The translations under genes were made by a program, and so were the position numbers. Below the pieces are notes generated by a model, which ran no database searches, had not been told where the DNA came from, and worked only from the letters and a program-made list of their open reading frames with translations. From Symbiodinium sp. CCMP2592 (taxonomy: Eukaryota; Sar; Dinophyceae; Suessiales; Symbiodiniaceae): a DNA stretch of 64,000 bases. Shown piece by piece: positions 43,828 to 59,388 of the stretch; within the stretch, counting starts at the first letter, position 1, and every line of letters begins with the position of its first letter. The DNA lies in contig CAJNDT010006006.1 of assembly GCA_905221615.1 (NCBI GenBank), positions 211,474-275,473 on the forward strand, in the 5' to 3' direction.

Positions 43828-45395
43828 CCTTGGACTGATGGGGCGCCCCTGATTTTAAAATCAGAACTCTTACCACCCTTGAACTCCGAGGATGGAGCCT
43901 TGGACTGATATGGCGCCCCTGATTTTAAAATCAAAACTCTCACCACCCCTTGAACTCCGAGGATGGAGCCTTGGACTGACGGGGCGCCCTTGATTTTGAA
44001 AAAACAGAACTCTTACCACCCTTGAACTCCGAGGATGGAGCCTCGGACTGATACGGCGGTCCTGCCTTTAGAAGCAGAAGTCTTATCACCTTTGAACACC
44101 CCTGATTTTAAAATCAGAACTCTTATCACCATTGACCTCCGAGGATGGAGCCTGGGACTGATGGGACCCCCTGGGTTGAAAATGAGGATGGAGCCTGGGA
44201 CTGATGGAGCGCCCCTGGCTTGAAAATAAAAACTCTAATCACCCTTGAACTCCGAGGATGAAGCCCTGGCATGATGGGGCATCCCTGATTTCAATATCAG
44301 AAGTCTTATCGCCTTTGAACTCCGAGGATGGAGCCTTGGACTGATGGGGTGCCCCTGATTTTAAAATCAGAACTCTCACCACCCTTGAACTCCGGGGATG
44401 GAGCCTCGGACTGATGGGGCGGTCCTGACTTTAAAACCAGAAGTCTTATCACCCTTGAACTCCGAGGATGGAGCCTCGGACTGATGGGGCGCCCCTGATT
44501 TCAATATCAGAACTCTTATCACCATTGAACTCCGAGGATGGAGCCTGGGACTGATGGGGCGCCCCTGGATGAAAAATGAGAACTCTTACCACCCTTGAAC
44601 TCCGAGGATGGAGCCTCGAACTGATGGGGCGCCCCTGAGTTTAAAATCAGAACTCTTACCACCCTTGAACTCCGAGGATGGAGCCTCGGACTGATAGGGC
44701 GGTCCTGTCTTTAAAACCAGAAGTCTTATCACCCTTGAACACCCCTGATTTTAAAATCAGAACTCTTATCACCATTGACCTCCGAGGAAGGAGCCTGGGA
44801 CTGATGGGACCCCCTGGATTGAAAATGAGAACTCTTATCACCCTTGAACTCCGAGGATGGAGCCTGGGACTGATGGGACCCCCTGGATTGAAAATCAGAA
44901 CTCTAATCACCATTGAACTCCGAGGATGGAGCCTGGGACTGATGGGGCGGCCCTGATTTTAAAATCAGAACTCTTACCACCCTTGAACTCCGAGGATGGA
45001 GCCTTGGACTGACGGGGCGCCCCTGATTTTAAAATGAGAACTCTTACCACCCTTGAACTCCGAGGATGGAGCCTCGGACTGATGGGGCGCCCCTGATTTT
45101 AAAATCAAAACTCTCACCACCCCTTGAACTCCGAGGATGGAGCCTTGGACTGACGGGGTGCCCTTGATTTTGAAAAAACAGAACCCTGACCACCCTTGAA
45201 CTCCGAGGATGGAGCCTTGGACTAATGTGGAGCCCCTGATTTCAGAATCAGAACTTTTATCACCATTGAACTCCGAGGACGGAGCCTCGGACTGATAGGG
45301 CGGTCCTGTCTTTAAAACCAGAAGTCTTATCACCCTTGAACTCCGAGGATGGAGCCTCGGACTGATGGGGCGCCCCTGATTTTAAAATCACAACT
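43828..45395. repeat. 70-bp minisatellite with three palindromes per unit, about 22 copies
   Basis: The unit starts gaactccgaggatggagcct and runs 69-71 bp. Each unit carries CCGAGG-atggag-CCTCGG (6-bp stem), GGGGCGCCCC (palindrome) and CTGATTTTAAAATCAG (16-bp palindrome). Many copies vary in the stems. Some keep pairing (CTGATTTCAGAATCAG near 45236), others lose it (gggcggtcctg). Two copies are shortened near 44090-44190. Open frames on both strands are repeat translations. It ends 360 bp before the copia element's first hairpin. Confidence 0.9.
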
Positions 45396-45752
45396 CTATT
45401 CATGTTTATATGTATACATGTGTACATGTATATGTGTATATGTGTATGGGTAATTTTAACGCTACGCCGCCCGCCTCGGCTGTGTAGCGGCAGGGCGAGG
45501 GGGCAGTCGATGTTTTTTTATGTCTTTGTTTTCCTGCAAACCAGTTAAGGCCTTCCAGCCATGCCGCCCGGAGCAAGAAAAAACAACACAGAAAGAGCCT
45601 GAAAAGAAAGACAGGCAGTGGATTGACGACGCAAAAGCCAATGCGGGGGCGAGGAAGACGAAACGAGGGCGGGGAGAAGAAGTGGGAGCAGGAAAGAGGG
45701 AAGAAAAAGGGGGGGAGGGGGGGGACACCTGTGGAGGTACCCGTTCGGTACT
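45396..45752. other. Microsatellite end and purine-rich leader
   Basis: tatgtttatatgtatacatgtg... to about 45445, then GC-rich sequence and a purine-rich tract (45590-45725) ending in G runs. No supported gene. It may include the 5' end of the copia element, but I could not find an LTR matching the 3' side. Confidence 0.45.
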
Positions 45753-45844
45753 CTCTACACAGGTGGAGGCAACCGGAATACCCGGTGTGCTTCACTCAGG
45801 TGAAGATGACCGGAGTCTCTCCGGCACACTTCACTCAGGTGAAG
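45753..45844 (+). promoter_or_regulatory. Leader hairpin cluster of the copia element
   Basis: Four hairpins in 92 bp: 45753-45768 (CTCTAC-ACAG-GTGGAG, one G-T pair), 45790-45805 and 45829-45844 (both CTTCAC-TCAG-GTGAAG), and 45810-45824 (CCGGAG-TCT-CTCCGG). They lie 47-138 nt before the ATG of the polyprotein, so they would be in the mRNA leader if it begins upstream. Role unknown. Confidence 0.7.
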
Positions 45845-45890
45845 ATAACCGGAAGAGGTTTCTCCCGGGGCTCGATCCAAGAACAGCGCA

Positions 45891-48800
45891 ATGGCTAGCC
45901 ACTCTGCGACTATCTTTGAGCATGAAGGAGGAGATGATGACTACCTCCTCCACGGAAATGAATCTTTCGCGACTAATCATCGTCATCTCAATGAATTACA
46001 CCGTCTTTCAGCTTTCCAGCAGGTGACCACCAAAGTACCTCCATCTTATGATGGTAGAAGCAGTTGGTTTGCCTATGAAGATGCGATCGATGACTGGTGT
46101 GACATTACTGAGCTAGACAATGATAAGCGTGGACCAGCTTTGAGAAATCGGCTAGAAGGTGAAGCAGCAATCCACAAGAGACTTCTCGACAGAGATCGCC
46201 TGAAGGACCCGAACAACGGAGTGAAGTACTTCAAGAGTTTCCTGCGGCCGCTTTTCGTGAAGGGAGCAGCGAATGTTTTTCTCTATCGCTTCCAGCAGTT
46301 CATGAACATGCACCGTGGGAACGGAGACATGCTTCGTTGGATTACCAGGTTTCAACTCTCTGTTCAGAGAATGCAAGAAGCGTGGAACGATACCTATCTG
46401 CCGATCGAGGACCCGAACAATGCAGAGGTCAGAGCTTTCATAGTAGGACTTCCTCCAGAAGAACAAGAAAACCTTACGCCAGCTCAGGCAATGGAGAGAG
46501 CCAACGAACGGCTCAGAGAGCAGCATGCTCGGACCATTCCGATCACGCCCAACCTGGTCGCTTTGATCTTTGTGTCCCTGTCTGATCTGACACAGGATCA
46601 GCGTCAGGTGTTGACATCACTGATGGCGCATCGGAACCGAGTCCTGGCTGACTACAACACGGCCGAGCTTCGCGAAGTCTACCTGGAGATCTTCTGTACG
46701 ACCAAGACTACCGTCGACAATCCACTCCTCGCTCCTTCCGGCCACGGTGGCCGCAAGACCTTCCTTGTGATCGATGAAGGATATTTGAACGATCATGAAG
46801 GCTACTGGGTCGAGGACGAGGAAGATGGCACCGAAGGTTTCCTCGAAGCGGATGAGGACGCCTTCTGGGTCTACGACGACGAGAACTATTCATGGTTCCA
46901 GCGGCGCTTCCAAGGCCGCAAGATGAGGCGCGGATTCAAGGGCCACCGTAAAGGCAAAGGAAAAGGTGGCAAAGGATCCAAAGGAAGGCGCTTCTTCAAA
47001 AGGAAGAAAGGCAGGTCACATCTTGCCGAAGAATCAGAAGCATGGCAAGCAGAAGGACAATGGCAAGATTACCAGTGGAGCGATCAGTCCTGGGATGACT
47101 GGTCCTGGTACGAGTCTGAGGAATCCTATGCAGCCAAAGGAAAAGGAAAGAAAGGAAAGAAGGGCAAAGGAAAGAGCAAGTTTGGCAAGGATGGAAAAGA
47201 TGGAAAGTCCGGAAAAGACGGACAGAGCCAGCTTGCTGATGCTGCCCCGAGCGGCACCACAGCCGCCACAACCTTCTTCGTTGAACATCTCAACACTCCG
47301 AACTTTTCTTTCATGGCCACCGAAGAGAAGATCAATGAGATCGAGGAAGCCTTCATCTCTCAGCCCTTGACGCCGACCGCGATGGTGTTGGACCTGGGAT
47401 GCACGAGAGCAATGGCTTCGAGAGTGGCCGCACAGGACCTCATGGAGTTCTGTGACAAGAACCAGAACTGTGGCATATGGTACACCATTGCTGAGACCAC
47501 TTCTCAGTTCACCTTTGCCAATTCCGAGTCTACCAAATGCAACCAGAAGTTGGTCATTTGCATGTACGACCGGGACTTTGCAGTTCAATCCACAGAGTTC
47601 GACATTGTGGAACAAGGGCATGTTCCCATTCTCATGTCCTTACCTCAGATGCGCAATCTTCGTTTCCAGTTCGAGCTCCATCCGGAAAAGGCCTTGCTCA
47701 GCAGCCCTGTGCTGGGAATCAAGGATGTGAGGCTGAAGGTTGCACCCAGCTCACACTTGGTACTTGATCTTCTTGAACTCAGTCAGCTGATGTGGAATGT
47801 GCGTTTCAGCAAGCATAAGAAGTCGAGCTTCCTCACCTACTTCTCCCACTACGAGTACGGCTTCCATCAGAAGACCGAGGGATGCTGTTCTCATGAACAG
47901 GTACCCGACAATCTCGTGTTGGCGACTGATGATGAATGGGTGATCAACGAAGCCGACATGGAAATGATTCGCATCCACAAGAAGATGAGAAGAGTCAAGT
48001 ACGAACCCAAGGCGGGTTATGTGCCAATTCCGTTGGAGTATCTGGACACCAAGCGCAAGACGATCATGGAGTTCTCCAAGGGAAAGAGCGTTACTCAAGA
48101 AGATGACTGGCGTTCTTCTGAGCTTTCTTCAACAAGAACTACTGACTCTTGGAAAGGCAAGACCATTTTCAAGATTCTGCCTGGTGGCATCGAGAGTAGA
48201 ACCTCGGTGCCAGCCAAGTCCAAGGATCCAACCCGTGGAAAGGTAGGATCTCCAGAGGACATGGTTAGCGCAGGTAAGCCTGAAGACAGCTCGAAGAACA
48301 CAGGAGCATCCGGAAGCTTTCCTCAGGGAAAGGCACCGGCAAAGAGAAGGATTCGAGCCAAGGGAAGCTTTCCACAGGGAAAGGCACCCGAGGAACCGGC
48401 TCCTCCTCCTCTTGCTCCTGAGGATGATCCGGATCTTCAAGAGTACGAACCTTCCGAACCGGGGGATGCAGATTTGCTTCCTCCGAGTCCTCCGAAGGCC
48501 CCAGAGCCACAGTCGCTAGAACCTAGGAGGATCGCGCTTCCGTTGCCAGGCCACGAGGTCTCAAGGGCTTCTCCGCAGTATCAGCGCATGTTGGAAAAGC
48601 TGAACAATGATGTTGAGCTTTACAAGTTGCATGTGAAGCATTACCACATGAGTCCTGCTCAGTTTCGACGCAGGACCAGCATGCTTGGTCTGCCAGGAGA
48701 GATCTATGACAAGTACGACCGCATTGTCAAAGGCTGTCGTGTTTGCAGCACCTCGGTGCCTACGCCTCCGCGAGCCAGAATCGCAGGGTTAAGAGCATCA

Positions 48801-51800
48801 TCCTTCGGTGATCTCATTTTTGTTGATCATGAAGAAATCAAGTTCGGTACTAAAGCCTACTTGGCTTTGGTCATCATTGATGGTGCTTCAAATCTTCTGT
48901 GGGCTACGGCTCTTACAAGCCTGGAAGCGCCAGAGACTCTGGGAGCTTTTAGACAATGGACAGAGGAGAACAACTGCGTTCCTAAGGGAATCGTAGGAGA
49001 TCAAGCATTTTTCACGCCACAGTTCATGTCTTACTACAAGTTCCATGGCATTACTCCGTATCCATGTGGACCACGGACTCCTTGGCCTAATCGAGCTGAG
49101 ACCGCAGTGCGTCTTTTCAAGCGCACCTGGGCAATCATGGCCAAGGCCTTAGCTGATGAGGGTTATGCAGAGAAGGTGACTGTTCGTCAAGCAGTCAAGA
49201 AGGTGGCTTGGGCAAGAAATTGCCAGCTTACCGTCTCAGGCTATTCTCCTTTGGAGATAGCTACAGGAAGACGGCCACCAGACTTGTTTGATGTCGAGAA
49301 CAGTTCTCCTGAACAGCTCTCTGCTGAACCTGCCGAGGAGGATCGAACCACTCTGGAACTCCAGAGGATTGCCATGCGGGCTCATCAAGAGGCTAGACAA
49401 TCACTTGACCTTCGGAAGGACCTTGCACGGAGAGTCATGCCGTCTGATGGTCCTTACTCGAAGGGTGACCGCGTGTTTGTTTGGCATAAGGATGAGTCGA
49501 AGAAGAAGTCTGAAGGAACCTGGGTCAGAGGCATAGTTGTGTCACAGGAAGGTGCCATGGTGTTGGTTGAAGTTCATCGTGCCGTTCTTCGGGTTAATCA
49601 GTCGAAGGTCAGGCGTGATGGAGATCCGTGGCATGATGTGGCCATTCCTCTGAAGAAAGATGAGGTCCCGAGACGCTCTTCTCAGGAAGAGGCACTCGAC
49701 CGCATCGGCGACGATATTCTTGATCGTGCCGGTTCTGGGTTCTGCTATGAGCATGAGATCTGTTACCACACTCTCACTTCAGGCAAGAGCGATTTCGTTG
49801 AGATCACACCTCGCCTCACCGGGCTTACTGCGTGCACAGTCCATTCTGGACTTGATGCGAGTGAACCTGTGTTGTTTGGTGAATGGAGCGCCAAGTCTAT
49901 CCAATCTTCGATTGAGGCCGCTTGGCGAGTGATCTTGAAGGCAGAGCCTAATCACATTTTTATTCATCCTGTCATCCCTGATGGTTGGACCAGGAAGGCC
50001 ACCAATGCCTTCTGGCACTTTTGTGCCGAAGTCTGCCGTTGGCAAGATGACAAGGGTGATGGATACTTCGTGACCATCATGTATCCTTCTCATTGTGGGT
50101 TTTGGCTTTCGCAGAGTAGTCGCTCGCTGAAGTGGAGGAGAGGACTTTCATTCCACACCTTCAAGAACCGTGGTGTACTTCCTTCAGGGGGAGATGACCA
50201 CGGTAAGCGTCAGCATGGTGAGCTTTCTTTTCTCACTAATCTGCCTGATGGATCATTTGGCCGTTTGGAGTCGTTGGAAGAAGGCTATGACTCTGCTAAC
50301 GCACTTGATCCAAGGTTTGCTGTGCTGCTTTCGCAGTGTCTTGTGGGTGATGAACGATCAGATCTCCGACAATGTTACTTGTTCGAAGATATCTTTGAGG
50401 ATTTTGATGATGGAACACTGTGTGCGTTGTGTTTGCGATCAGACCGCAATTCAGAGGCTTTACCGGTTCTTCCGTCAGAAGCAGAGTACTCATTACTCTC
50501 AAACAATGACAAAGGGAAGCTTCCGACACCTCTGAGGTTTGTTGCGCCGCAGCGGTTTGTTACATCGTCTTTGGTCCAGACTCTGTCATATGTTGACAGT
50601 CTCCTTCCAGGTACTGAGTTGGAAGTTCACACGACCACATCGTCTGACGCGGTCGCCTTGCGGCCAATGATTAAGAATGTGCGCGTGCTAACTCTGCCGT
50701 ATCTGGAGTTTGAGTACTGTAACGTCTACAGGGGGACTCAAGGGAAAACACTCCCTTTGGTTCATCGTCATCCTGATGCTGTTGTCATTTTGTGGCAGAA
50801 GGGTGACATGAATCATGTTTTTTTCGTGACGATGGCACAGTTGCTTCCTTGCCTTAAGGATATGCAATCAACGCACTGGTCCATGATAGTGTTCTGGAAT
50901 GAGTCACAGAACAACACTTCCAGACGCGGGCCTGATGTTGGCTTGGACTTCACGGACCAGCCAGCGCCGGCCCCGGTTGCACCGCAACCGCCAGCCACAG
51001 ACGACGATGTGGACAATCCAGGATATGAGGATCCACACGGTGATATGCCTGTGGACGATGAGGAAATGCCACTACAGCATCCAGAGCAGGATTTAGATGA
51101 TAATCCTGTTGAGTTGCATGTCGGTGGTGACCCTCCGTCACAACCTCCTGGAGGCGGTACTCATGTACCGGTACCAGGGGGAGATGATGATTCCGACCTG
51201 GATCACGATCCGGACGGTGATGGACATCCGCCAGGAGGCGGTCCTCAGGGACCGGGACCTGGTTATGGTCCGTCACCGGAAGAGCCTCCTCTTCCGATGG
51301 AGTTTCACGAGGAGTCGCCTCCTCCTGGAGGTCCTCCCGATTCTCCTGGGGCTCCGCCTCAGTTTGCGAACCCGGATCAGGTTCTTAGTCCACCGATGCC
51401 GTGGCCGGCACCACCTTCACCTATTGTTCCTGTTCCAATTCCGCCGCATCCTCACTTTCCGGTGCCACAGAGTATGCGACCGCCGTCGCCTCGCAATGTG
51501 TCTCAGACACGTGCCAGAGGCACACATCCTGAAGATGTGTCTAAGGCCAAGTCACGTACTGTTGTGGGACCTCCGGTTGTGTTGTTGCCTGGGCAGTCTG
51601 CGGGAAAGAAGGATCCCGATCCGTCGGGTGACTTTCCAGGTTTTCACGAACCTGCTTCCTCTTCTTCTGATCCGGCTCCTGTTCCTGGTTTGCCGGTGAC
51701 TGAGGGGGAATGTCCTATCCAGCAAACCCCACTCCCGGAACCCACCCCGGAACCGCCGGTGCCGGAAACTGGTGAGGATACTGATTCGGATGCCACAGTC

Positions 51801-54284
51801 GACTATCGTGATGAAAGCTTGCTTGCCTTAGCTGCTGGCGACGACGACGTTTTGATTCGCCTTCCGTCGGACTTCAAGGTTCCGTCCTTTGTTCCGTTGG
51901 ATGGTGATGGTTTTGCGTCGTGGTTGACTAAACAAGATAAAATCAAGGCAGGTACCCTCACGCCGGAGATGCAGCGCAAGTATGCCGCCGAAATTCGGAA
52001 GGCTAAACTTGAGGAGTTCAAGAGTTACTTGGACAATGATGCAATTCGGCTGACGGACCGTCGCAAGCTTAAAAACGATGTCAATTTTCTTACCGGACGT
52101 TGGGTCCTTACTGTGAAGGTTGACAAGAACGGTTACTTTTCCAAGTTCAAAGCCCGATGGGTTTGTCGTGGGTTTCAGGACAAGTTTGCCTGGGATCAAC
52201 AAACGGACAGCCCTACGGCTACTCGGTATGGTTTCCGTTTGGTTGCGCAGTGCGCTGCCAATCACTATTGGGATCTTTTTCATTTGGATCTTAAGACCGC
52301 TTTCCTTCAGGGGGAACACTACAATCTGTCATCTCGCATGGTTGTGGTTCAGTTGCCTCCTGACATCGGTTTGCCTACCTGGATGGTTGGCCTTTGTCTC
52401 AGACCAGTCTATGGTCTGAACGATGCACCGAGAAGATGGTGGAATCGTTTGGACAAATTCCTCAGGTCTGTAGGCATGGAACCGACCAGAGCTGACCGAT
52501 GCACTTATGTCGCATACGACGGCATAGAAGGCAAGAAGGGCAAGAGCCACCTTGCGGCAGGAAGCTCCTCTCAGGAGGAGGAACCTGAAGCAGGAAGCAC
52601 CTCTCTTGAGGTGGAACCTGCCTACCTCAAGGAGGTTGCCCTTCATGCCATGACATGCTACGCATACGATGAAGGAAACCGTTCTTCCTCCGACCGTGCG
52701 GAGGAGAGATCCTATCTTTCATGTCCCGATATCGCTCAGTGCTTTAACACCGATACCAAGAAGATGGTTGACTATGCTTGGAGGCCTGTGACTGATGACA
52801 AGCTTCTCGGATTCTTGGGCAGTGTTGCTTGTAAGAAAAGAGGTTGGTTCCCTTACGAGAACGGGCATGCTCTCGTTTCTCACAGGGCCAAGGCTCTCCG
52901 TACTCCTGCACCTGTCTATCAGGTCAAGGACTACCCTTATCGAGTTTCCATGATCCTCCGTAAAGGAACATGGTGGATTGTCGAAAGGGCCCATGACCTG
53001 AGGTTGGACAAGGGCGATAAGACCTGCTTCCTTGAAGAAGAAGCTGAGGTCCTAGTCTCCTTGTTCCTTCCAGAGAAGGCTTCATACAAGGTCGAGAGCT
53101 TATCAGAGCTCTCCCCCGAGTTGGTTGATCAGCTTCTTGAACACTTTGTTGACCCTGTGCATGGAAGTCCCAGCAAAGGTCGCAGGACAGTTGGAGTGAT
53201 GAGTCTTCATGTTGATGATCTCATCATAAGTGGAACCCCTGAGTTCCTCACTTGGTTCCTAAAGAAGATCAAGGAACACTTCACTGTCGGCCATGAGGAC
53301 AAGAATGACCTTACGTTCACGGGACAGCGTGTTCGTTGGGTTCTTGATGCACAAGGGAAAAAGAAGTATATCTCGATCGATCAAAAGCTGTGTGTTTCAG
53401 AGCTTGAGGAGATTGTCATACCAAAGCATCTTAAGGATGCAGATGCGTGTGATAAATCTCTTCACACTTCCTATCGCTCTTTGCTTGGTAGCATCAACTG
53501 GCTTCAGTCGAGGACGCAATTTCAGGCATGTTACCAGTTCTCTCGTCTGGCATCAGCATCCGCTGCTCCGACTGTTGGTCACTGCAAGGAGTTGAACAAG
53601 TTGTGTCGACAGATACGCAGTGAGGAAGTAGAGTTGCGGGTGTGGCCAGTGAAGGGATCACCGAGGATTCTTGGAATTCCTGACGCAGCTTTCCGTAACA
53701 ACAGCGACAAGTCCTCACAGAGGGCGATGACTATCTTCATCGCAGATGAAAGGGTCAAGAATCGAAGAGACACCCGAGGCTCATTGGTCTTCTTCGAATC
53801 AACCAAGATTAAGAGAACGACCCTCAGTACCACTGTCGCTGAGCTTTACGCCTTGATGAAGTGTTTTGGTACCTGTCAAATGCTTCGTGGTTTGTGGAAG
53901 GACATTAGTGGTCTGGATGCCGAGATTCACATTCGCACCGATGCTAACAATCTCGTGTCTACCGCTTCTACTACTCACTCACCCGAACAACAGGAAACCA
54001 TTCACATGATTCAAATGCTGAGAAAGGAAGCGTGTTCAGGTGCTATTGCTGATCTTTCCCACGTTCGAACCGAACACTGTCTTTCTGACTGTCTCACGAA
54101 ACGAAGCGCTAATCCTAGAAACCTCCTGAGTTCTGTTCAAACTGGGTGGTTGAAGGAAATTGATTCACATCCTCCTTTTCGTTCCATGATTGAGCACAAG
54201 GCCTTCTTGAACGCCTGGCTCCGTAAGGAGTACGCGGTTTTGAGTGCAGTGCAACATGTCATGTTCATGCAGGAGCGTTTGTGA
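45891..54284 (+). CDS. Copia-type Gag-Pol polyprotein (Gag, protease, integrase, RT, RNase H)
   Basis: 2797 codons without a break; start ATGGCTAGCC. Residues 40-290 are a helical Gag-like region. Lys/Gly tracts at about 347-373 and 414-447 replace a CCHC knuckle. The protease carries AMVLDLGCTRAM, Asp501-Leu-Gly in place of D-T/S-G. Integrase: a zinc site (His914/His919 region, Cys949, Cys952), then Asp979, Asp1037 and Glu1070. An unknown region (about 1330-1680) and a Pro/Asp-rich linker (about 1690-2000) follow. RT starts near 2060 (LTGRWVLTVKVDKNG, KARWVCRGFQDK), with Asp2133 in HLDLKTAFLQGE and polymerase box HVDD at 2440-2443. About 230 residues are inserted between CTYVAYDG (2207) and HVDD, where usual copia RTs have about 15. 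RNase H: Asp2598, Glu2651 in AELYAL, Asp2684 in RTDANN. The protein copies and integrates the element. It is twice the usual copia length because of the linker and insertion. Confidence 0.9.
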   Translation: MASHSATIFEHEGGDDDYLLHGNESFATNHRHLNELHRLSAFQQVTTKVPPSYDGRSSWFAYEDAIDDWCDITELDNDKRGPALRNRLEGEAAIHKRLLDRDRLKDPNNGVKYFKSFLRPLFVKGAANVFLYRFQQFMNMHRGNGDMLRWITRFQLSVQRMQEAWNDTYLPIEDPNNAEVRAFIVGLPPEEQENLTPAQAMERANERLREQHARTIPITPNLVALIFVSLSDLTQDQRQVLTSLMAHRNRVLADYNTAELREVYLEIFCTTKTTVDNPLLAPSGHGGRKTFLVIDEGYLNDHEGYWVEDEEDGTEGFLEADEDAFWVYDDENYSWFQRRFQGRKMRRGFKGHRKGKGKGGKGSKGRRFFKRKKGRSHLAEESEAWQAEGQWQDYQWSDQSWDDWSWYESEESYAAKGKGKKGKKGKGKSKFGKDGKDGKSGKDGQSQLADAAPSGTTAATTFFVEHLNTPNFSFMATEEKINEIEEAFISQPLTPTAMVLDLGCTRAMASRVAAQDLMEFCDKNQNCGIWYTIAETTSQFTFANSESTKCNQKLVICMYDRDFAVQSTEFDIVEQGHVPILMSLPQMRNLRFQFELHPEKALLSSPVLGIKDVRLKVAPSSHLVLDLLELSQLMWNVRFSKHKKSSFLTYFSHYEYGFHQKTEGCCSHEQVPDNLVLATDDEWVINEADMEMIRIHKKMRRVKYEPKAGYVPIPLEYLDTKRKTIMEFSKGKSVTQEDDWRSSELSSTRTTDSWKGKTIFKILPGGIESRTSVPAKSKDPTRGKVGSPEDMVSAGKPEDSSKNTGASGSFPQGKAPAKRRIRAKGSFPQGKAPEEPAPPPLAPEDDPDLQEYEPSEPGDADLLPPSPPKAPEPQSLEPRRIALPLPGHEVSRASPQYQRMLEKLNNDVELYKLHVKHYHMSPAQFRRRTSMLGLPGEIYDKYDRIVKGCRVCSTSVPTPPRARIAGLRASSFGDLIFVDHEEIKFGTKAYLALVIIDGASNLLWATALTSLEAPETLGAFRQWTEENNCVPKGIVGDQAFFTPQFMSYYKFHGITPYPCGPRTPWPNRAETAVRLFKRTWAIMAKALADEGYAEKVTVRQAVKKVAWARNCQLTVSGYSPLEIATGRRPPDLFDVENSSPEQLSAEPAEEDRTTLELQRIAMRAHQEARQSLDLRKDLARRVMPSDGPYSKGDRVFVWHKDESKKKSEGTWVRGIVVSQEGAMVLVEVHRAVLRVNQSKVRRDGDPWHDVAIPLKKDEVPRRSSQEEALDRIGDDILDRAGSGFCYEHEICYHTLTSGKSDFVEITPRLTGLTACTVHSGLDASEPVLFGEWSAKSIQSSIEAAWRVILKAEPNHIFIHPVIPDGWTRKATNAFWHFCAEVCRWQDDKGDGYFVTIMYPSHCGFWLSQSSRSLKWRRGLSFHTFKNRGVLPSGGDDHGKRQHGELSFLTNLPDGSFGRLESLEEGYDSANALDPRFAVLLSQCLVGDERSDLRQCYLFEDIFEDFDDGTLCALCLRSDRNSEALPVLPSEAEYSLLSNNDKGKLPTPLRFVAPQRFVTSSLVQTLSYVDSLLPGTELEVHTTTSSDAVALRPMIKNVRVLTLPYLEFEYCNVYRGTQGKTLPLVHRHPDAVVILWQKGDMNHVFFVTMAQLLPCLKDMQSTHWSMIVFWNESQNNTSRRGPDVGLDFTDQPAPAPVAPQPPATDDDVDNPGYEDPHGDMPVDDEEMPLQHPEQDLDDNPVELHVGGDPPSQPPGGGTHVPVPGGDDDSDLDHDPDGDGHPPGGGPQGPGPGYGPSPEEPPLPMEFHEESPPPGGPPDSPGAPPQFANPDQVLSPPMPWPAPPSPIVPVPIPPHPHFPVPQSMRPPSPRNVSQTRARGTHPEDVSKAKSRTVVGPPVVLLPGQSAGKKDPDPSGDFPGFHEPASSSSDPAPVPGLPVTEGECPIQQTPLPEPTPEPPVPETGEDTDSDATVDYRDESLLALAAGDDDVLIRLPSDFKVPSFVPLDGDGFASWLTKQDKIKAGTLTPEMQRKYAAEIRKAKLEEFKSYLDNDAIRLTDRRKLKNDVNFLTGRWVLTVKVDKNGYFSKFKARWVCRGFQDKFAWDQQTDSPTATRYGFRLVAQCAANHYWDLFHLDLKTAFLQGEHYNLSSRMVVVQLPPDIGLPTWMVGLCLRPVYGLNDAPRRWWNRLDKFLRSVGMEPTRADRCTYVAYDGIEGKKGKSHLAAGSSSQEEEPEAGSTSLEVEPAYLKEVALHAMTCYAYDEGNRSSSDRAEERSYLSCPDIAQCFNTDTKKMVDYAWRPVTDDKLLGFLGSVACKKRGWFPYENGHALVSHRAKALRTPAPVYQVKDYPYRVSMILRKGTWWIVERAHDLRLDKGDKTCFLEEEAEVLVSLFLPEKASYKVESLSELSPELVDQLLEHFVDPVHGSPSKGRRTVGVMSLHVDDLIISGTPEFLTWFLKKIKEHFTVGHEDKNDLTFTGQRVRWVLDAQGKKKYISIDQKLCVSELEEIVIPKHLKDADACDKSLHTSYRSLLGSINWLQSRTQFQACYQFSRLASASAAPTVGHCKELNKLCRQIRSEEVELRVWPVKGSPRILGIPDAAFRNNSDKSSQRAMTIFIADERVKNRRDTRGSLVFFESTKIKRTTLSTTVAELYALMKCFGTCQMLRGLWKDISGLDAEIHIRTDANNLVSTASTTHSPEQQETIHMIQMLRKEACSGAIADLSHVRTEHCLSDCLTKRSANPRNLLSSVQTGWLKEIDSHPPFRSMIEHKAFLNAWLRKEYAVLSAVQHVMFMQERL

Positions 54285-54356
54285 GTCATGTCTGCTTCAT
54301 GTGTGAGCTGTCGGAGCAATTCAATGCATGTGCTTCATGAAGAGTTGTTGGTCTCT

Positions 54357-54373
54357 TTTTAAATTTGTGCCTG
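54357..54373. repeat. 17-nt direct repeat after ORF1 (second copy at 58806-58822)
   Basis: TTTTAAATTTGTGCCTG occurs 73 nt after the polyprotein stop and again, identically, at 58806-58822 after the second ORF. The two copies sit in equivalent 3' positions, so they may be RNA 3'-end or trans-splicing signals, or scars of a duplication. Confidence 0.6.
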
Positions 54374-54421
54374 CATTGCTCAAATCAGCTGGTTCAAAAC
54401 TCAAGTGAGAAAGTAGCCCAC

Positions 54422-54446
54422 AACTTCCTCTTCTTCTGTTACCAGC
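54422..54446 (+). promoter_or_regulatory. Polypyrimidine tract and AG acceptor before the second ORF
   Basis: aacttcctcttcttctgttaccag, followed by one C and then ATG at 54447. A strong pyrimidine run ending in CAG, one base before the start codon, looks like a 3' splice acceptor. Dinoflagellate mRNAs receive a spliced leader in trans, so this could make a separate mRNA for the second ORF. No cis donor is required for that. Confidence 0.5.
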
Positions 54447-55145
54447 ATGGCTGCGGCAGGACCCTCGATGGACACTGGACGCTCCTCTCATGAGGAGGCA
54501 CCATTCCAGGTCTACTGGACACCGACAACGGGATGCAACTTCAAGATTGACGTCCGCACTGGTGTCCCCGACCTGTCCTTGTACCAACAGAGCGCGTCCT
54601 GGGCAAACCGTCGTGTACTCCGAACAGTTGGAGATGGCGACGGTAATGCCAGCTATCCTACAAGGGATCGTCGAGCCTATCCTGCGAGTGCTCCGGTGGC
54701 CTCCCTCAGGATCATCCCAGAAGGTGTTCCACGGTTTTTCCGTCAGCAGGACACCACGGCGTACTTCCCTCAGGGGGAGATGGCCGCGGTGAACATTCTG
54801 GAAGGACAGTTGGCCTTTCTGTCACACGTCCTGCTGTACGAGGAAGCTCACCCTGGGACCCATGTGTTGCAGCGGCACCTCACGTGGAAGTTCGACTTCC
54901 TCCGGTGCTTCCTTGGATGTCTTACCGTCGACGAGCTCACCGAGCTCGATCGTGAAATCTTCAACATTCACCAGATGCGCCACAATCACGGTGGATGGGC
55001 GGTGAAGTCATCCAAACAGCTGTCATCATTGACCAGGCACGACACGAGGGTCACGCCGGGTCGATACATGGAGATCCCGTTGGAGACGATGATGAAGCAC
55101 CCCATCAGGCCTTTCGAGTGGGAGCCCAAGAAGTTCTTCGCCTTC
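54447..55145 (+). CDS. Second ORF of the copia element, N-terminal part
   Basis: Starts MAAAGPSMDTGRSSHEEAPF and is read in this frame to about 55145 (the frame is open to 55313, but the last 55 codons are nonsense). Protein-like to RPFEWEPKKFFAF. The adjoining sequence in the other frame resumes as DGYVREDFQMLVRVINEAYG, so one base was gained or lost near 55140. It carries the hairpins 54482-54497 and 54764-54779. No domain recognised. It forms one protein with the 54995-58087 frame if the shift is ignored. Confidence 0.65.
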
Positions 55146-58087
55146 TTGATGGCTATGTGCGAGAGGATTTCCAGATGCTCGTCCGCGTCATCAATGAGGC
55201 TTATGGAGTGGACTTCTTCTCCTACATCCAGCGCCACGCCGGTGATCTGGAGGTTCGCCGTAAATACACGGTGCGAACCCCTGAGGGCTATTGTCTCTAT
55301 GACAGTACCCTGAAGCAGCCGTTCAACGGCAGCTACCTCCTGGCGGTTCTGGAGAAAGTCTTCGCTGAGTCTGACCAGCGCGATTTCAAGTCGGCTTTCG
55401 CCCGCAAGGCAAAAGCTGATTTAGTGGCGTACGAAGACTTGAAGGCGAAGAAGGAGTCTGAGCTGAATGAGCTCCTCACCCGACCATATGACGACATTAT
55501 GATCGAGGAGTTCATCGAGCGACTCCCATGTCCACAGATCGAGGAGATCGAGGAGCCTCCCGCGGCTACTCAGATGGATACCTCCGAACCGTCGTCTGGA
55601 TCCACGGACTTGCCACAGGGCAAGAAGGTTGATCCGGTTAAGACCGAGCCGACCGATGTGCCAATGGAGACTGAAGCTCCAGAAAGCTCTCCACAGGGAG
55701 AGGCATCTGGGGTTACTGTCGAGCCAATGGAGACGGACGCTCCGGAAAGCTCTCCACATGGGGAGGCATCTGGGGTGGATGTTCCACAACAGAAGACCGA
55801 AGCCACGGAAAGCTCTCCACAGGGAGAGGCATCCGAGGTGAAGGTCGAACCTGATGTGCACATGGGTCAGGAAGGAGGTAAGTCCGAGAACGTCGAAATG
55901 GCTGAGGAAGGCTCACCACAGGGTGAGGAATCCATGCCAGACATTTCTCCCGAGAAGGATGATGAAAGTGAACTTCACGATCAAGGCATCTGGGGGAAAT
56001 GCAAGACTGTTCCGGATCCTGAGTACTACCAGGCCGCGAAGGATGCAGAGGACCAGAATGAGAACGCGTTCGACAAGATGGGCAAAGCAAAGGAAAAGAT
56101 CGAGCTCGTCGATCTCGAAGAGTTCAAACATTTCCTTACGCAGCTCACCGAAATCGAACGACAAAGCCCTATGCGGATGCTCTGCAAGCAGCTGCATGGA
56201 TATGGCTATTCAGGCTTGTATCATACAGGACTTCGTGATCCTGATTACGAGCCCGTTCTCGCCTACAAGGTGCAGCATATGAGTTGGAGGGTAAATGTTC
56301 CAAACCACAAGGGACAGAAATACTCTCTCTCTATGGTGGATCTATTCGACCAACTCAACAAGATGGATCCCATCTATGAGCGTCGTCCCGACAACAAGGA
56401 CGTTGTTTTTCGTTCTGGGGACGTTCGTAGCACCTTGGACGACAAGCTCATGGGCAAGGCCACTGACATCCGAGAATCAGCACTGGAAGTCATGGAAGCG
56501 CTTCTTGATAAGCTGAAGTCCCTGGATGCAAGCGGCAATCCGGCAACTCGAGAAGAACTTTTGAATGCTATGCTTCACTACTTCTTGAGCGCCGGAGTCG
56601 ATGAAGAGGAGATCGGGGACCTCTCTCTTGAGAAGATGCCGAATCCTTACATTCATCGTTTTGGTCTGGCAGAGGACTCCAATGTCCCTATCTTCACCAG
56701 CAAGACCAAGTATGCCGCGCTCATCCTCAATCTCGGCAACATGAGCAGGGGAAGAAAGCGTACCGCTCCTCGCTCCGTTGCTAATCACATTGACTGGGAC
56801 GATGCTACACCATCCAAAGGAGCCTTGATAAAATCGATTGCACAGTCGAAGACGCATTTGTTCATGCTCTGCGAAGCGGCTAAGATCGATGACTCCGAAG
56901 AGGCCTTCCTCAAGTCACGCGGTTGGCAATTCCTTCGTAACGAGTCCAAGGACCTGATGGTGGGAAGTCGTACAAATGGTGTCGGATCTTCGATCACCCG
57001 TCTTGCCGGCTCCACTCTCAGTGGATATGCCCACGAGTCCCTTCCAATAACCTATATGGTCGCGGAAATCGTGTATGGCATGACGTTACCGACCGGTCTC
57101 CAGGGCAGTCGTGGTGATGTTCCAGATGAGTCACTGACCAAGGTCTTGGAGCGAGCTGGATCCGACCGGCTCAGAGTTTGTGTCTTCCACCTCCACAACG
57201 ACGCGGCGGCAGACAAGGTGGCGTTGGCTCATGAAGTGTTGGGCAACATGTTCATCGACTGCTTGCACTACCAAGTCGACCTCATCGGTGGCGACGCCAA
57301 CATGGCCCTCTACCGGGCCACCGGCAGAAAGCAGGAGTCGATGGATATTCGTGGCGGGATGTACCAAAGCCTTCTCGACTACTTCTTGGAGGCATGGTCA
57401 GAAAGCCCAAAGTGCCCACACCTCTGTTCGCCTCGTGCGAGACATGTGTCAGCAAACGCCATGTGGCTTCTGAAACAGTATGAGGACACGCTGGGAATGC
57501 CATACAAGGAAGCTAAGCAACCAGACTGGAATACCTTTCCTGGTTTGGATCCTGTTATGGCTACAGTCATGGAATGGGGACACAGCATGTCGGACGATCA
57601 ATGGGCGGAGTTTCCGTCTTCAAAGACTGAGTTCGACATCCATGTCTCTGAGTGGCTGTTAAACTCCACCAGCGCCGCGTACCTTCTCAACGATCGGGAC
57701 TATGACGCTCACACTCCGCTCCTCATCGAGGTTCACGCGAACCAGTACTCTGGAGGCAGGATGAGAGCGCTCAACCGCAATCCCGACACCATGAAGGAAG
57801 CCGCGGACAGAAGAAAAGAGAGACAGAAGCTGAACAAGGCGCGTGGTTCTGGTTCTACTGGTCCTGCAGCCGCACCACAGGGAGCAAGCTCTTCTCAGGA
57901 AGAGGCAGCTTCTGGTGCTAAAGCTTCTGGTTCTCAACGTCCTCAAGAACCCGCACAACCTCCTGGTGGCAAAGAAGGCGGCAAAGGAGGCAAGTCCTCC
58001 AAAGGAAAAGGCAAGGACGCCGACAAGGGCAAGTCCAAAGGCAAATCCAAGGACAAGTCCAAGGGCAAGAACAAGGGGAAGAACTGA
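54995..58087 (+). CDS. Second ORF of the copia element, main part with EEP-type nuclease-like domain
   Basis: 1030 codons; genuine from about residue 50. Residues 150-330 are acidic with SSPQGEAS-type repeats encoded by hairpins. Residues 340-570 are helical and of unknown type. From about 578 the sequence follows an endonuclease/exonuclease/phosphatase fold: YAALILNLGNMSRG (first strand), Glu627 in LFMLCEA, VCVFHLHNDAAA (732-739), Asp767-x-Asn769 in DLIGGDANMALY, and Asp904-x-His906 in DAHTPLLIEV. These correspond to the E, GDxN and (S)DH metal and catalytic motifs of APE1/DNase I-like enzymes. Two tails follow, one basic (DRRKERQKLNKARGSG) and one Lys/Gly-rich (960-1030). EEP enzymes cut phosphodiester bonds; in LINEs they nick target DNA. 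The role in a copia element is unknown. It ends TGA CTA, with open frame beyond. Confidence 0.6.
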   Translation: MGGEVIQTAVIIDQARHEGHAGSIHGDPVGDDDEAPHQAFRVGAQEVLRLLDGYVREDFQMLVRVINEAYGVDFFSYIQRHAGDLEVRRKYTVRTPEGYCLYDSTLKQPFNGSYLLAVLEKVFAESDQRDFKSAFARKAKADLVAYEDLKAKKESELNELLTRPYDDIMIEEFIERLPCPQIEEIEEPPAATQMDTSEPSSGSTDLPQGKKVDPVKTEPTDVPMETEAPESSPQGEASGVTVEPMETDAPESSPHGEASGVDVPQQKTEATESSPQGEASEVKVEPDVHMGQEGGKSENVEMAEEGSPQGEESMPDISPEKDDESELHDQGIWGKCKTVPDPEYYQAAKDAEDQNENAFDKMGKAKEKIELVDLEEFKHFLTQLTEIERQSPMRMLCKQLHGYGYSGLYHTGLRDPDYEPVLAYKVQHMSWRVNVPNHKGQKYSLSMVDLFDQLNKMDPIYERRPDNKDVVFRSGDVRSTLDDKLMGKATDIRESALEVMEALLDKLKSLDASGNPATREELLNAMLHYFLSAGVDEEEIGDLSLEKMPNPYIHRFGLAEDSNVPIFTSKTKYAALILNLGNMSRGRKRTAPRSVANHIDWDDATPSKGALIKSIAQSKTHLFMLCEAAKIDDSEEAFLKSRGWQFLRNESKDLMVGSRTNGVGSSITRLAGSTLSGYAHESLPITYMVAEIVYGMTLPTGLQGSRGDVPDESLTKVLERAGSDRLRVCVFHLHNDAAADKVALAHEVLGNMFIDCLHYQVDLIGGDANMALYRATGRKQESMDIRGGMYQSLLDYFLEAWSESPKCPHLCSPRARHVSANAMWLLKQYEDTLGMPYKEAKQPDWNTFPGLDPVMATVMEWGHSMSDDQWAEFPSSKTEFDIHVSEWLLNSTSAAYLLNDRDYDAHTPLLIEVHANQYSGGRMRALNRNPDTMKEAADRRKERQKLNKARGSGSTGPAAAPQGASSSQEEAASGAKASGSQRPQEPAQPPGGKEGGKGGKSSKGKGKDADKGKSKGKSKDKSKGKNKGKN
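55609..55927 (+). repeat. Cluster of five 16-nt hairpins inside the second ORF
   Basis: Hairpins at 55609-55624 (CTTGCC-ACAG-GGCAAG), 55687-55702 and 55813-55828 (CTCTCC-ACAG-GGAGAG), 55750-55765 (CTCTCC-ACAT-GGGGAG, one G-T) and 55912-55927 (CTCACC-ACAG-GGTGAG). Stems differ by paired changes while the loop stays ACAG/ACAT. All are read in the same codon phase and give (S/L)PQGE/K peptides. Confidence 0.85.
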
Positions 58088-58090
58088 CTA
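58085..58090 (+). promoter_or_regulatory. Candidate stop-codon readthrough site TGA CTA in the second ORF
   Basis: AAC TGA CTA GGT ends the Lys/Gly-rich tail. The same frame continues open for 81 codons. UGA CUA is a known leaky stop context. Compare the same six bases at 28693-28698 in the DIRS-like element. Confidence 0.5.
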
Positions 58091-58333
58091 GGTTCCGATT
58101 CTTCGGACGTGGATATGGACAATGGTTCTGAAGAAGTTCCTTTGGAACAAGTTGAAGACGTTGCTCCAGATCCACAGATATCGCTACCTAGATCCCCTGC
58201 TGATCCCCGCGGTTACGACCCTGTTCGTCATCAGCCGGTGATGCCGATTCACACTGTCGACATCTACCGTTGGCATGGTGAGGATCATTGGCGTGATAGA
58301 ACCTGGGATGCAGACCTAGAGTTCGTCGACTGA
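58088..58333 (+). CDS. In-frame acidic extension of the second ORF (readthrough product)
   Basis: 81 codons directly after the TGA at 58085, beginning LGSDSSDVDMDNGSEEVPLE and ending ...WDADLEFVD before TGA at 58331. It is strongly acidic, with a middle part rich in Pro and His/Trp. It has an internal ATG at 58109 that could start a separate 74-residue peptide, but lies in the same frame as the nuclease-like ORF with only one stop between. The protein-like composition argues that it was translated as a tail. Alternatively the TGA is a recent nonsense mutation. Confidence 0.5.
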   Translation, partial: LGSDSSDVDMDNGSEEVPLEQVEDVAPDPQISLPRSPADPRGYDPVRHQPVMPIHTVDIYRWHGEDHWRDRTWDADLEFVD

Positions 58334-58357
58334 ACTGGCTGTGTGTTTCACGGAATG

Positions 58358-58478
58358 CTTCTTTCATAAGAAGGTATCCACTTTGAGCATTCGCCATTTC
58401 ATAGGGAGATGCTTTTCTCAGGAAAAGGGACTTCCTAAAGAACTCTTTCTCAAAGAAAGATACTTATCTCAGGATAAG
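58358..58478 (+). repeat. Trailer hairpin cluster of the copia element
   Basis: Hairpins at 58358-58373 (CTTCTT-TCAT-AAGAAG), 58412-58427 (CTTTTC-TCAG-GAAAAG), 58444-58460 (TCTTTC...GAAAGA, loop TCAAA) and 58463-58478 (CTTATC-TCAG-GATAAG). They lie after the last stop codon, so their structure is not explained by a peptide. Stems are AT-richer than the coding copies but keep the TCAG/TCAT loop. Confidence 0.85.
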
Positions 58479-58534
58479 ATACTTCTAATGCCCTTATATA
58501 TTTGCCTTGCCGCAAGATGTCATGCTGGCATCAA

Positions 58535-58551
58535 GTAAAGCTAAGCTTTAC
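58535..58551. repeat. 8-bp-arm palindrome GTAAAGCT-A-AGCTTTAC
   Basis: Perfect inverted repeat with a 1-nt centre, 57 nt after the last trailer hairpin. It could mark the element's 3' end or a transcription/processing signal. Confidence 0.6.
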
Positions 58552-58989
58552 ACCTTTATGTTACAGTATGCTTTCCGCCTGGAGAGGGAACTGAAACACA
58601 AGTGGGCAACTTTCAAGCAAAAGTTTTCAGTTGAAGATCCGTTTGCGTTTCGTGCGTGTTCTGCTCTTTTCATTGAAGCTGTCTTCAGGCTAGAGATGTA
58701 TAGATTCTCTTCAAGTCGCAGATGTAGCTCAATACTCCGCTAATTCGACCAAGAGCAATAACAGGCTTGTAGATTGCCGACTCCACGGCCATGCAGCTCT
58801 ACGTGTTTTAAATTTGTGCCTGGTTGAAACACTGAATGTTACACATCCAGGTGCCTGTCTGTTTCACGTATCACTTGCATGTATCCATGCCTGTTGCTCA
58901 AGGTTCTAGTGCAGTGGACTACAGCTGTGCGCCTGTAGCAAAAGAGACACCTGAGTGCCTGTGTTCCTGTACGCCTAGCGAGGGAATAC
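58552..58989. other. No supported gene
   Basis: Includes the second copy of the 17-nt repeat (58806-58822). A frame from 58507 to 58743 has no motif. Probably 3' untranslated or flanking sequence of the copia element. Confidence 0.45.
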
Positions 58990-59108
58990 ACGTCCAGGTT
59001 ACATCTCAAGGGGGGGGAGGGGGGGAGGGGGGAGGGGGGCAGAAAGGGGTGGAGGAAAAAAAGAGGGGGGAGGAGGCCTGGGAGGGGGCGGGTAGGCCCG
59101 CAAATCAA
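58990..59108. repeat. G-rich purine tract
   Basis: Runs of 6-9 G separated by A (ggggggggaggggggg, ggagggggg), similar in character to the purine/G-rich tract at 45640-45730 upstream of the element. It could form G-quadruplexes. Confidence 0.7.
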
Positions 59109-59224
59109 AGAAAATGAGGGGAGGCCGGGCAAGGGGGTGGCAAACGAGCGCAAAAACAGGGTGTCACCAAACACTTAGGTAACCACCAAAACGCCTGGGC
59201 CTGTGGCCTCGGCGGATTATGTAT

Positions 59225-59388
59225 TCTTGTGTAGATGCATATATTTAGATGTGTATATATGTATATATGTATATATGTATATATGTATATATGTATAAAT
59301 GTATATATGTATATGTGTACACGTGTTTTGTGTATATATGTGTACGTGTACATATGTATATGTGTATGTATGTATGCATGCATGCATG

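Follow-up and report, generated by a model that had tools for sequence, protein, structure and literature searches.

A two-helix hairpin with a homopurine internal loop recurs along a copia-type retrotransposon of Symbiodinium

Results

Layout of the host element and its hairpins

The 64,000-nucleotide (nt) stretch of Symbiodinium sp. CCMP2592 DNA analyzed here (contig CAJNDT010006006.1, positions 211,474 to 275,473, forward strand; hereafter the window) contains a retrotransposon along which one small structured module recurs some 26 times. Judged from its sequence, this host element is a Ty1/copia-type retrotransposon with long terminal repeats (LTR) and two open reading frames (ORF). Its main features are as follows.

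45891..54284, + strand: ORF1, copia-type Gag-Pol of 2797 aa (Pfam RVT_2 at residues 2062-2211, E 8.3e-16)
54447..58087, + strand: ORF2, broken in the window copy by a 1446-nt deletion at ~55153
58825..59008, + strand: 3' LTR, starting with TGAAACAC and ending with CATCTCA

The window copy is truncated at ~45725 and has no 5' LTR or primer-binding site (PBS) region. Complete sister copies, which we located in the assembly of 1.098 Gb (5383 contigs), read in the order LTR of ~185 nt (TGAAACAC...CATCTCA), PBS-like stretch TGGTAGCGGAGCTCCCGGG, leader, ORF1, ORF2, 3' untranslated region (UTR) and 3' LTR. They carry an LTR of ~185 nt at each end, with the PBS-like TGGTAGCGGAGC, which we presume to match a tRNA, after the 5' one. 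The 1446-nt segment deleted from the window copy is present in ORF2 relatives, and of 28 ORF2 matches scored at other places in the genome, 27 contain no stop. In sister copy L011 (L011:3891-8981, minus strand) it encodes 1696 aa with a KptA/Tpt1-like domain.

To delimit the module, a covariance model (CM), R1, was built from 24 copies and run unfiltered over the window and over a related element, L029, described below. It returns 26 window matches at E<0.02, all on the + strand between 45744 and 58595. Twenty-four of these served to train the model and so match by construction; the other two, 58562-58595 and 56611-56644, are independent. The matches are listed with their R1 scores, those absent from the preliminary description of this DNA being marked as new.

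45744..45777, + strand: hairpin in the 5' leader, 34.3 bits
45781..45814, + strand: hairpin in the 5' leader, 38.1 bits
45820..45853, + strand: hairpin in the 5' leader, 38.6 bits
47876..47909, + strand: hairpin 47885 in ORF1, new, 37.3 bits
48308..48341, + strand: hairpin in ORF1, 39.9 bits
48359..48392, + strand: hairpin 48368 in ORF1, 40.2 bits
49667..49700, + strand: hairpin in ORF1, 39.4 bits
50169..50202, + strand: hairpin 50178 in ORF1, likely a recent gain, codon phase 0, 33.3 bits
51146..51179, + strand: hairpin 51155 in ORF1, new, 36.5 bits
51230..51263, + strand: hairpin 51239 in ORF1, new, 38.3 bits
52556..52589, + strand: hairpin in ORF1, 40.8 bits
52590..52621, + strand: hairpin in ORF1, loop TCTT, 26.5 bits
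54473..54506, + strand: hairpin in the 5' part of ORF2, 36 bits
54609..54642, + strand: hairpin 54618 in ORF2, codon phase 0, new, 29.6 bits
54755..54788, + strand: hairpin 54764 in ORF2, nearest to 50178, 37.2 bits
55600..55633, + strand: hairpin in ORF2, 29.1 bits
55678..55711, + strand: hairpin in ORF2, 63-nt tandem unit 1 (repeat family D6), 43.2 bits
55741..55774, + strand: hairpin in ORF2, 63-nt tandem unit 2, 37.6 bits
55804..55837, + strand: hairpin in ORF2, 63-nt tandem unit 3, 42.5 bits
55903..55936, + strand: hairpin in ORF2, 36.2 bits
56611..56644, + strand: hairpin 56620 in ORF2, weak or degenerate, new, outside the training set, 17.9 bits (E 0.014)
57880..57913, + strand: hairpin near the ORF2 C terminus, 40.2 bits
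58349..58382, + strand: hairpin in the 3' UTR, 32.8 bits
58403..58436, + strand: hairpin in the 3' UTR, 37.7 bits
58454..58487, + strand: hairpin in the 3' UTR, 33.4 bits
58562..58595, + strand: hairpin 58571 in the 3' UTR, loop GCCT, new, outside the training set, 24.7 bits (E 1e-4)

Seven of the 26 hairpins lie in UTRs and 19 are coding; they occupy the leader just past the PBS-like stretch, linkers of the ORFs, ORF2, and the 3' UTR ahead of the LTR. The preliminary description had listed 21 hairpins, put the total at about 20 copies and noticed none elsewhere in the window. Twenty of the 21 are among the R1 matches, whereas 58444 overlaps 58463 and pairs only partly. The copies are thus real but the set is larger, with six additions (47885, 51155, 51239, 54618, 58571 and the weak 56620), and its restriction to the element holds, as R1 gives no further window match at E<1 and none on the minus strand. 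Two early candidates, 45236 and 52301, are not supported as members by R1. Rfam has no match in the hairpins (window 45000-59300) or in L029; its only hits in that part of the window are two sub-threshold miRNA matches outside the hairpins, at 59231-59299 and 45398-45447.

A two-helix unit with covarying stems

The hairpins had initially been described as 16-nt structures. While the inner stem and loop are real, they are only the tip of a larger unit, whose outer stem and homopurine internal loop had been missed. From base to tip, the full unit has an outer stem of at least 3 bp and an inner stem of 6 bp, separated by a 3x3 internal loop, and is capped by a WCAK-type tetraloop. Across 27 candidate sites, Watson-Crick pairs are absent from the three internal-loop positions in 27, 26 and 27 cases and present at the outer-stem positions in 23, 26 and 23, often with more pairs beyond. 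The loop, previously thought fixed as TCAG or ACAG, is less so: among 22 perfect hairpins it reads TCAG in nine, ACAG in five, TCAT in four, and four other sequences once each, and it is uniform only within a lineage.

That both arms change together was borne out by the 24-copy alignment, in which 91.3% of paired cells are complementary vs 63.3% in shuffles, with a covariation score of 0.778 vs 0.213; these values were reached by none of 500 shuffles. Two-sided changes occur at 11 of the 12 pairs (as high in 1 of 500 shuffles), and sliding the partner by 1-3 columns lowers the paired cells from 91.3% to 42-55%. Because the 24 copies were picked by their stems, pairing is partly by construction, and fairer tests are covariation, the internal loop, sister copies and L029.

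Hairpins of this kind are also far in excess of expectation. Perfect hairpins with a 6-bp stem and 4-nt loop number 22 in 45501-58500, against a mean of 3.6 and a maximum of 6 in 20 dinucleotide shuffles. A looser scan for two-stem hairpins with any loop and any internal loop finds 26 in 45725-58837 (100 shuffles average 1.42 and reach at most 5); these are a different set from the 26 R1 matches, and the equal size is coincidental. On the minus strand of the element the same scan finds 19, because Watson-Crick stems read both ways. Codon-preserving shuffles (200 each), a check that the preliminary description had set for its proposal, leave the excess standing. Two-stem hairpins with an NCAN loop number 7 vs 0.54 (maximum 3) in ORF1 and 12 vs 0.65 (maximum 3) in an intact ORF2; the excess is weaker when only the inner stem is required, with any loop (ORF1, 20 vs 11.4, maximum 19; ORF2, 17 vs 5.8, maximum 13).

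A homopurine rule in the internal loop

We call X1 the internal-loop position beside the outer stem and X2 the one beside the inner stem. In a set of hairpins picked by their stems and an NCAN loop, with the internal loop left unconstrained, X1 has the same base on both strands in all 56 distinct units (A.A 47, G.G 9) and X2 in 54 of 56 (G.G 48, A.A 6), while the middle position is mixed (T.T 20, A.C 9, G.T 8, and others). Among 15 representatives at least seven changes apart, the rule holds at X1 in 15 and at X2 in 14 (shuffle p 0.003 and 0.002). With the tetraloop condition dropped as well, 21 of the 26 hairpins of the element follow the rule at both positions; in shuffles 3 of 142 do, and in window positions 1-43000 none of 50. 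The exchange between A.A and G.G alters both bases at once in a way not expected from Watson-Crick pairing. Of six changes that sister copies show at these positions, three leave the two bases identical or make them so again (G.A in the window against G.G in the copies). A G.G to A.A exchange is reportedly known in the Rev response element (RRE) of HIV.

Selection on the plus-sense RNA

Mutations were counted in 222 gap-free orthologous rows from sister copies, comprising 52 distinct variants. Changes in the inner stem include three double compensations, seven that produce G-U pairs, none that produce A-C and four others. Hairpin 47885 has an inner stem of CTGTTC/GAACAG in the window and CTCTTC/GAAGAG in L024, L026 and L028. 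Selection on the DNA or on the opposite strand would be expected to leave as many A-C as G-U changes; seven G-U and no A-C in the inner stem therefore speak for selection as a plus-sense RNA structure. The outer stem is weak or neutral in this respect, so the argument rests on the inner stem. A function at the DNA level is less likely, and a DNA dyad or cruciform was rejected: the internal loop is mirror-like rather than complementary, and both the R1 matches and the inner-stem tolerance of G-U are strand specific. The structure-selected motif initially proposed is thus supported by compensatory changes, by G-U without A-C, by R1 matches on the + strand and by an architecture kept in L029.

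Conservation in a distant relative

L029 (WTIT01000146.1), found in a scan of prokaryote assemblies, is a contig of an archaeal metagenome-assembled genome (MAG) and encodes a related element, whose ORF1 has 55% identity to P0009 and, over aligned blocks, 40-55% to P0001. This Euryarchaeota MAG thus has a dinoflagellate-type copia element aboard and, from the sequence of that element, is evidently contaminated. Strict two-stem hairpins number nine on the + strand of L029 (mean 1.97, maximum 8 in 100 shuffles) and five on the minus strand. All nine obey the homopurine rule at both positions, vs 19 of 197 in shuffled sequence. As in the 3' UTR cluster of the window, relaxed criteria reveal three hairpins downstream of the last listed ORF. 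R1 detects five L029 hairpins (E 0.02-0.23).

The loops of L029 are of the form NNCA, with CA at the end (GTCA, ATCA, GCCA, AGCA, TTCA), whereas the window element has CA in mid-loop. The loops thus resemble one another within a lineage but differ between the two lineages, and the conservation in related elements that had been anticipated applies to pairing and architecture but not to the loop.

Confinement to one element family

In a genome-wide pattern search, as suggested at the outset, GCTNNNCTCAGGNNNAGG has 2016 matches, vs 97 for the reversed control, and all three variable pairs are complementary in 87 of the 100 listed. One exact hairpin 16-mer alone occurs 612 times. An isolated paired match, C111, falls within a diverged family member (L032) with three hairpins, while an unpaired match, L033, lies in an unrelated gene where it encodes the peptide SSQEE and forms no two-stem hairpin. 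In ~56 kb outside the reference element at 20 loci, there are 25 two-stem matches, none with an NCAN loop; ten are a leader hairpin, three are an oppositely oriented copy read in mirror image and 12 are simple repeats or single occurrences. That leader hairpin, with loop ACTT, is a further one, placed directly after the PBS-like stretch and cut off in the window copy. No spread outside the element family was found among the 100 listed of 2016 pattern matches, the 56 kb of flanks and the one isolated match examined, and as far as sampled the hairpins are confined to this family.

Gain and loss of units

Comparison of orthologous sites shows that single hairpins come and go. An exact 30-nt unit corresponding to hairpin 50178 is present in nine closer copies and absent from two divergent ones spanning the site, L024 and L026 (~90-91% identity), whose empty site reads AAGAACCG/CGGTGAGC, the slash marking the junction. 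The matching residues are also absent in P0002-P0004 and P0006, and P0005 has a longer gap. The unit is identical to hairpin 54764 at 25 of 30 positions and shares the flanks AACCG..CGGTAA with 54618. This presence or absence of 30 nt, together with the 25/30 identity, indicates that units can be gained by copying, and for 50178 parsimony, applied to these sequences, favors an in-frame gain. No target-site duplication was found at this one site, the empty site ...AACCG/CGGT... keeping each half once, which sets the unit apart from a miniature inverted-repeat transposable element (MITE). Elsewhere, window positions 55660-55848 hold three 63-nt tandem units with one hairpin each, and L025 has one unit fewer. 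The earlier suggestion of a tiny mobile hairpin multiplying within the element is consistent with the 30-nt unit at 50178, and the two original readings, a structure-selected motif and a multiplying hairpin, are supported both together.

Coding copies

The coding hairpins were said to share one codon phase; 17 of 19 do, the exceptions being 50178 and 54618. In the main phase, stem pairing ties F/L to K, S to E, P to G, and S to E. For a five-residue frame centered on Q or H, 33 of 38 matches are fully coupled (P0001-P0008, L011 ORF2, P0122 and P0131). A coupling test with any center is significant in the near ORF1 group (p 0.0036, 0.0012) and in the 50%-identity ORF2 group (0.023, 5e-5), and gives p 0.061 and 0.0044 for P0122 with P0131. 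At matching sites of ORF2 proteins of ~50% identity, the peptides change jointly (LPQGK, SPPGE, LPHGK, SPSGE, SSFEE). Tests restricted to a Q/H center were discarded as unspecific, since the control centers S, T, L and G rose equally; the Q/H excess in the 61% ORF1 group is due to the peptides GGQPP and MRQRM.

Discussion

A possible docking module on the genomic RNA

What might such a set of hairpins do? We put at about even the chances that it constitutes a dispersed cis-acting protein-docking module on the genomic (+) RNA, with ~26 copies serving a packaging- or assembly-like role. Each module would comprise an outer stem, a 3x3 loop bounded by A.A or G.G, a 6-bp inner stem and a lineage-specific tetraloop. 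Its reader would be a basic protein encoded by the element, most likely the RNA-binding region of Gag, which is rich in R, K and G and could bind a groove widened by the homopurine pairs; many sites would then jointly mark and condense the genomic RNA for particle assembly. New copies could arise by template switching of reverse transcriptase from one hairpin to another, via short outer-stem homologies, and would be retained where they keep the frame and fall in a linker that tolerates them.

The Gag zinc knuckle is not a universal feature of Ty1/copia elements. Here, a regular expression for CX2CX3-4HX4C matches one of 121 ORF1 proteins (some N-terminally truncated or near-duplicates), while an R/K/G-rich stretch with GRRFF is present in all five ORF1 proteins inspected. 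From their sequences, this stretch is a candidate reader of the hairpins and the KptA-like domain of ORF2 a second candidate partner. The window element has RVT_2, a TG..CA LTR and a PBS-like stretch as Ty1/copia elements do; it differs in its additional KptA-like ORF2, its hairpin set and a Gag in which no zinc knuckle was found. A bolder and more doubtful proposal, which we offer tentatively, is that this lineage replaced a single packaging signal and a zinc-knuckle Gag by a distributed code, made of dozens of self-propagating RNA modules that have one fold with A.A/G.G pairs, whose loop co-changes with the reader protein and whose number and loop type would set which RNAs are packaged.

Several observations weigh against a docking role. 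In the 24-copy alignment paired cells are 100% complementary in the inner helix but 82.6% in the outer, and outer-stem changes in sister copies (two compensated, three G-U, three A-C, three other) are neutral as to strand. The other three of the six changes at homopurine positions break the rule. Any-center coupling falls short of significance in ORF1 proteins of the 61% group (p 1.0, 0.10), in far ORF1 proteins (1.0, 1.0) or in S. natans P0134 (1.0, 1.0; four contexts), and L029 is a single distant relative compared as DNA. Units are also lost, L024 being without 48368 and L012 without 51155 (a 46-nt deletion); only one clear gain has been seen, and skipping of a hairpin by reverse transcriptase could mimic it. 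Finally, roles in export, translation or stability would leave identical marks.

Other explanations

A selfish mini-hairpin could multiply inside the element at no benefit to it, its structure being kept because it is what moves. The presence or absence of the unit at 50178, its likeness to 54764 with flanks as at 54618, and the varying number of hairpin-bearing 63-nt tandem units between copies all speak for this. We nevertheless consider it unlikely, as the coupled hairpin peptides recur at matching sites of ~50%-identical ORF2 proteins, inner-stem mutations of sister copies keep pairing in 10 of 14 cases, and no hairpin was found outside the element family in the sample.

Equally unlikely, in our estimate, is a nuclear-export or stability element that would be a many-site analogue of the RRE. 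The analogy draws on RRE stem IIB, in which G.G and G.A pairs widen the groove for the arginine-rich Rev peptide (PMC4488727). Purine-purine pairs within a stem, probably widening the groove for a basic peptide, are common to both systems. However, the RRE is one compact element, while here ~26 modules are spread over 13 kb (45744-58595), and no Rev-like protein was identified, no search having been aimed at one.

More improbable still are substrates for RNA cutting and healing, in which the KptA/Tpt1-like 2'-phosphotransferase of ORF2 would clean ligated junctions at the hairpins. PF01885 is matched in L011 ORF2 (E 3.4e-5, 24.4 bits) and is precomputed for 12 of 13 ORF2 homologues, and the motifs RH, RxxIH/VH and NGV occur in order in L011 and in five of six homologues checked (P0122 being without its N terminus). 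A profile search of solved structures with ORF2 has a tRNA 2'-phosphotransferase as its best match, at only E 0.048. However, the L011 match is below the Pfam gathering score of 26, and the AlphaFold model of an ORF2 homologue is poor (pLDDT 38.6).

We give virtually no credence to peptide selection or chance acting on self-complementary linkers of low complexity in which S, P, Q, G, E and K abound: the common codon phase would fit, but, as already argued in the preliminary description, copies in UTRs escape such selection, the dinucleotide, codon-preserving and loose-scan shuffles all reject it, and neither the homopurine rule nor the SSQEE of L033 agrees with it.

Relation to known systems

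The proposed docking module can be compared with known dispersed signals. Multiple packaging signals are distributed along the genomic RNA of single-stranded RNA (ssRNA) viruses (PMC6281560), reportedly including parechovirus (PMC5431903), and one paper tests whether those of satellite tobacco necrosis virus (STNV) matter in vivo (PMC6475782). The likeness lies in many stem-loops with a shared recognition motif on one genomic RNA (PMC6281560); the differences are that here the host is an LTR retrotransposon, the module is a strict two-helix homopurine structure and binding by a particle protein is putative.

Rickettsia palindromic elements are mobile palindromic units. Mobile hairpins are also reported as the RHE of sponge mitochondria (PMC2800124) and a mobile DNA family of yeast mitochondria (PMC4478555). 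A short palindromic unit present or absent at orthologous sites is common to these and to our hairpins, which sit in frame within an ORF; they differ in that ours belong to one retrotransposon family, match the model on one strand, undergo compensatory change and have a lineage-specific loop.

The kind of system, a dispersed RNA signal like that of ssRNA viruses, is therefore known; new within our searches are the homopurine two-helix module, its density, the copying within the element and the host. No report of such hairpins, nor of a KptA-bearing dinoflagellate retrotransposon, is among the papers listed by a literature search covering sources other than subscription journals and preprints. 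To our knowledge, no other LTR retrotransposon would equal this one in the density and regularity with which a single structured RNA module is repeated. With many copies per element, many elements per genome and lineages with different loops, it offers a natural experiment on RNA-protein recognition. How elements without a zinc-knuckle Gag choose their RNA, and whether dispersed RNA signals are able to spread by self-copying in a genome, become testable questions.

Relatives and surroundings of the element

Homologue counts refer to the 120 matches listed out of 143 for ORF1 and to 13 matches among 7980 candidates scored for ORF2. Among the ORF1 relatives, P0007 and P0008 (79% and 77% identity) come from Symbiodinium natans. 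In a protein search of the element's own genome with P0126, 28 of 9906 candidates were scored, all 52-53% identical to the query; L030, the one checked, is 96-99% identical to L011, and by sequence these matches apparently belong to the same element family. Scans of viral contigs with the reverse transcriptase region and with regions A3 and A1 found no relatives.

In ORF2, a sequence search of solved structures with the L011 protein yields only proline-tRNA synthetase, matched over 48 residues (E 0.0017), and a GGDxN stretch recalling endonuclease/phosphatase folds is seen by eye. LTR flanks in L009-L028, also inspected by eye, have G-rich tracts in 8 of 8 3' flanks (CATCTCAgggg...) and in ~8 of 10 5' flanks (...ggggTGAAACAC), which points to a preferred type of integration site or to an effect of the assembly. 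In the window, a 70-nt tandem repeat array (44114-45484) adjoins the element.

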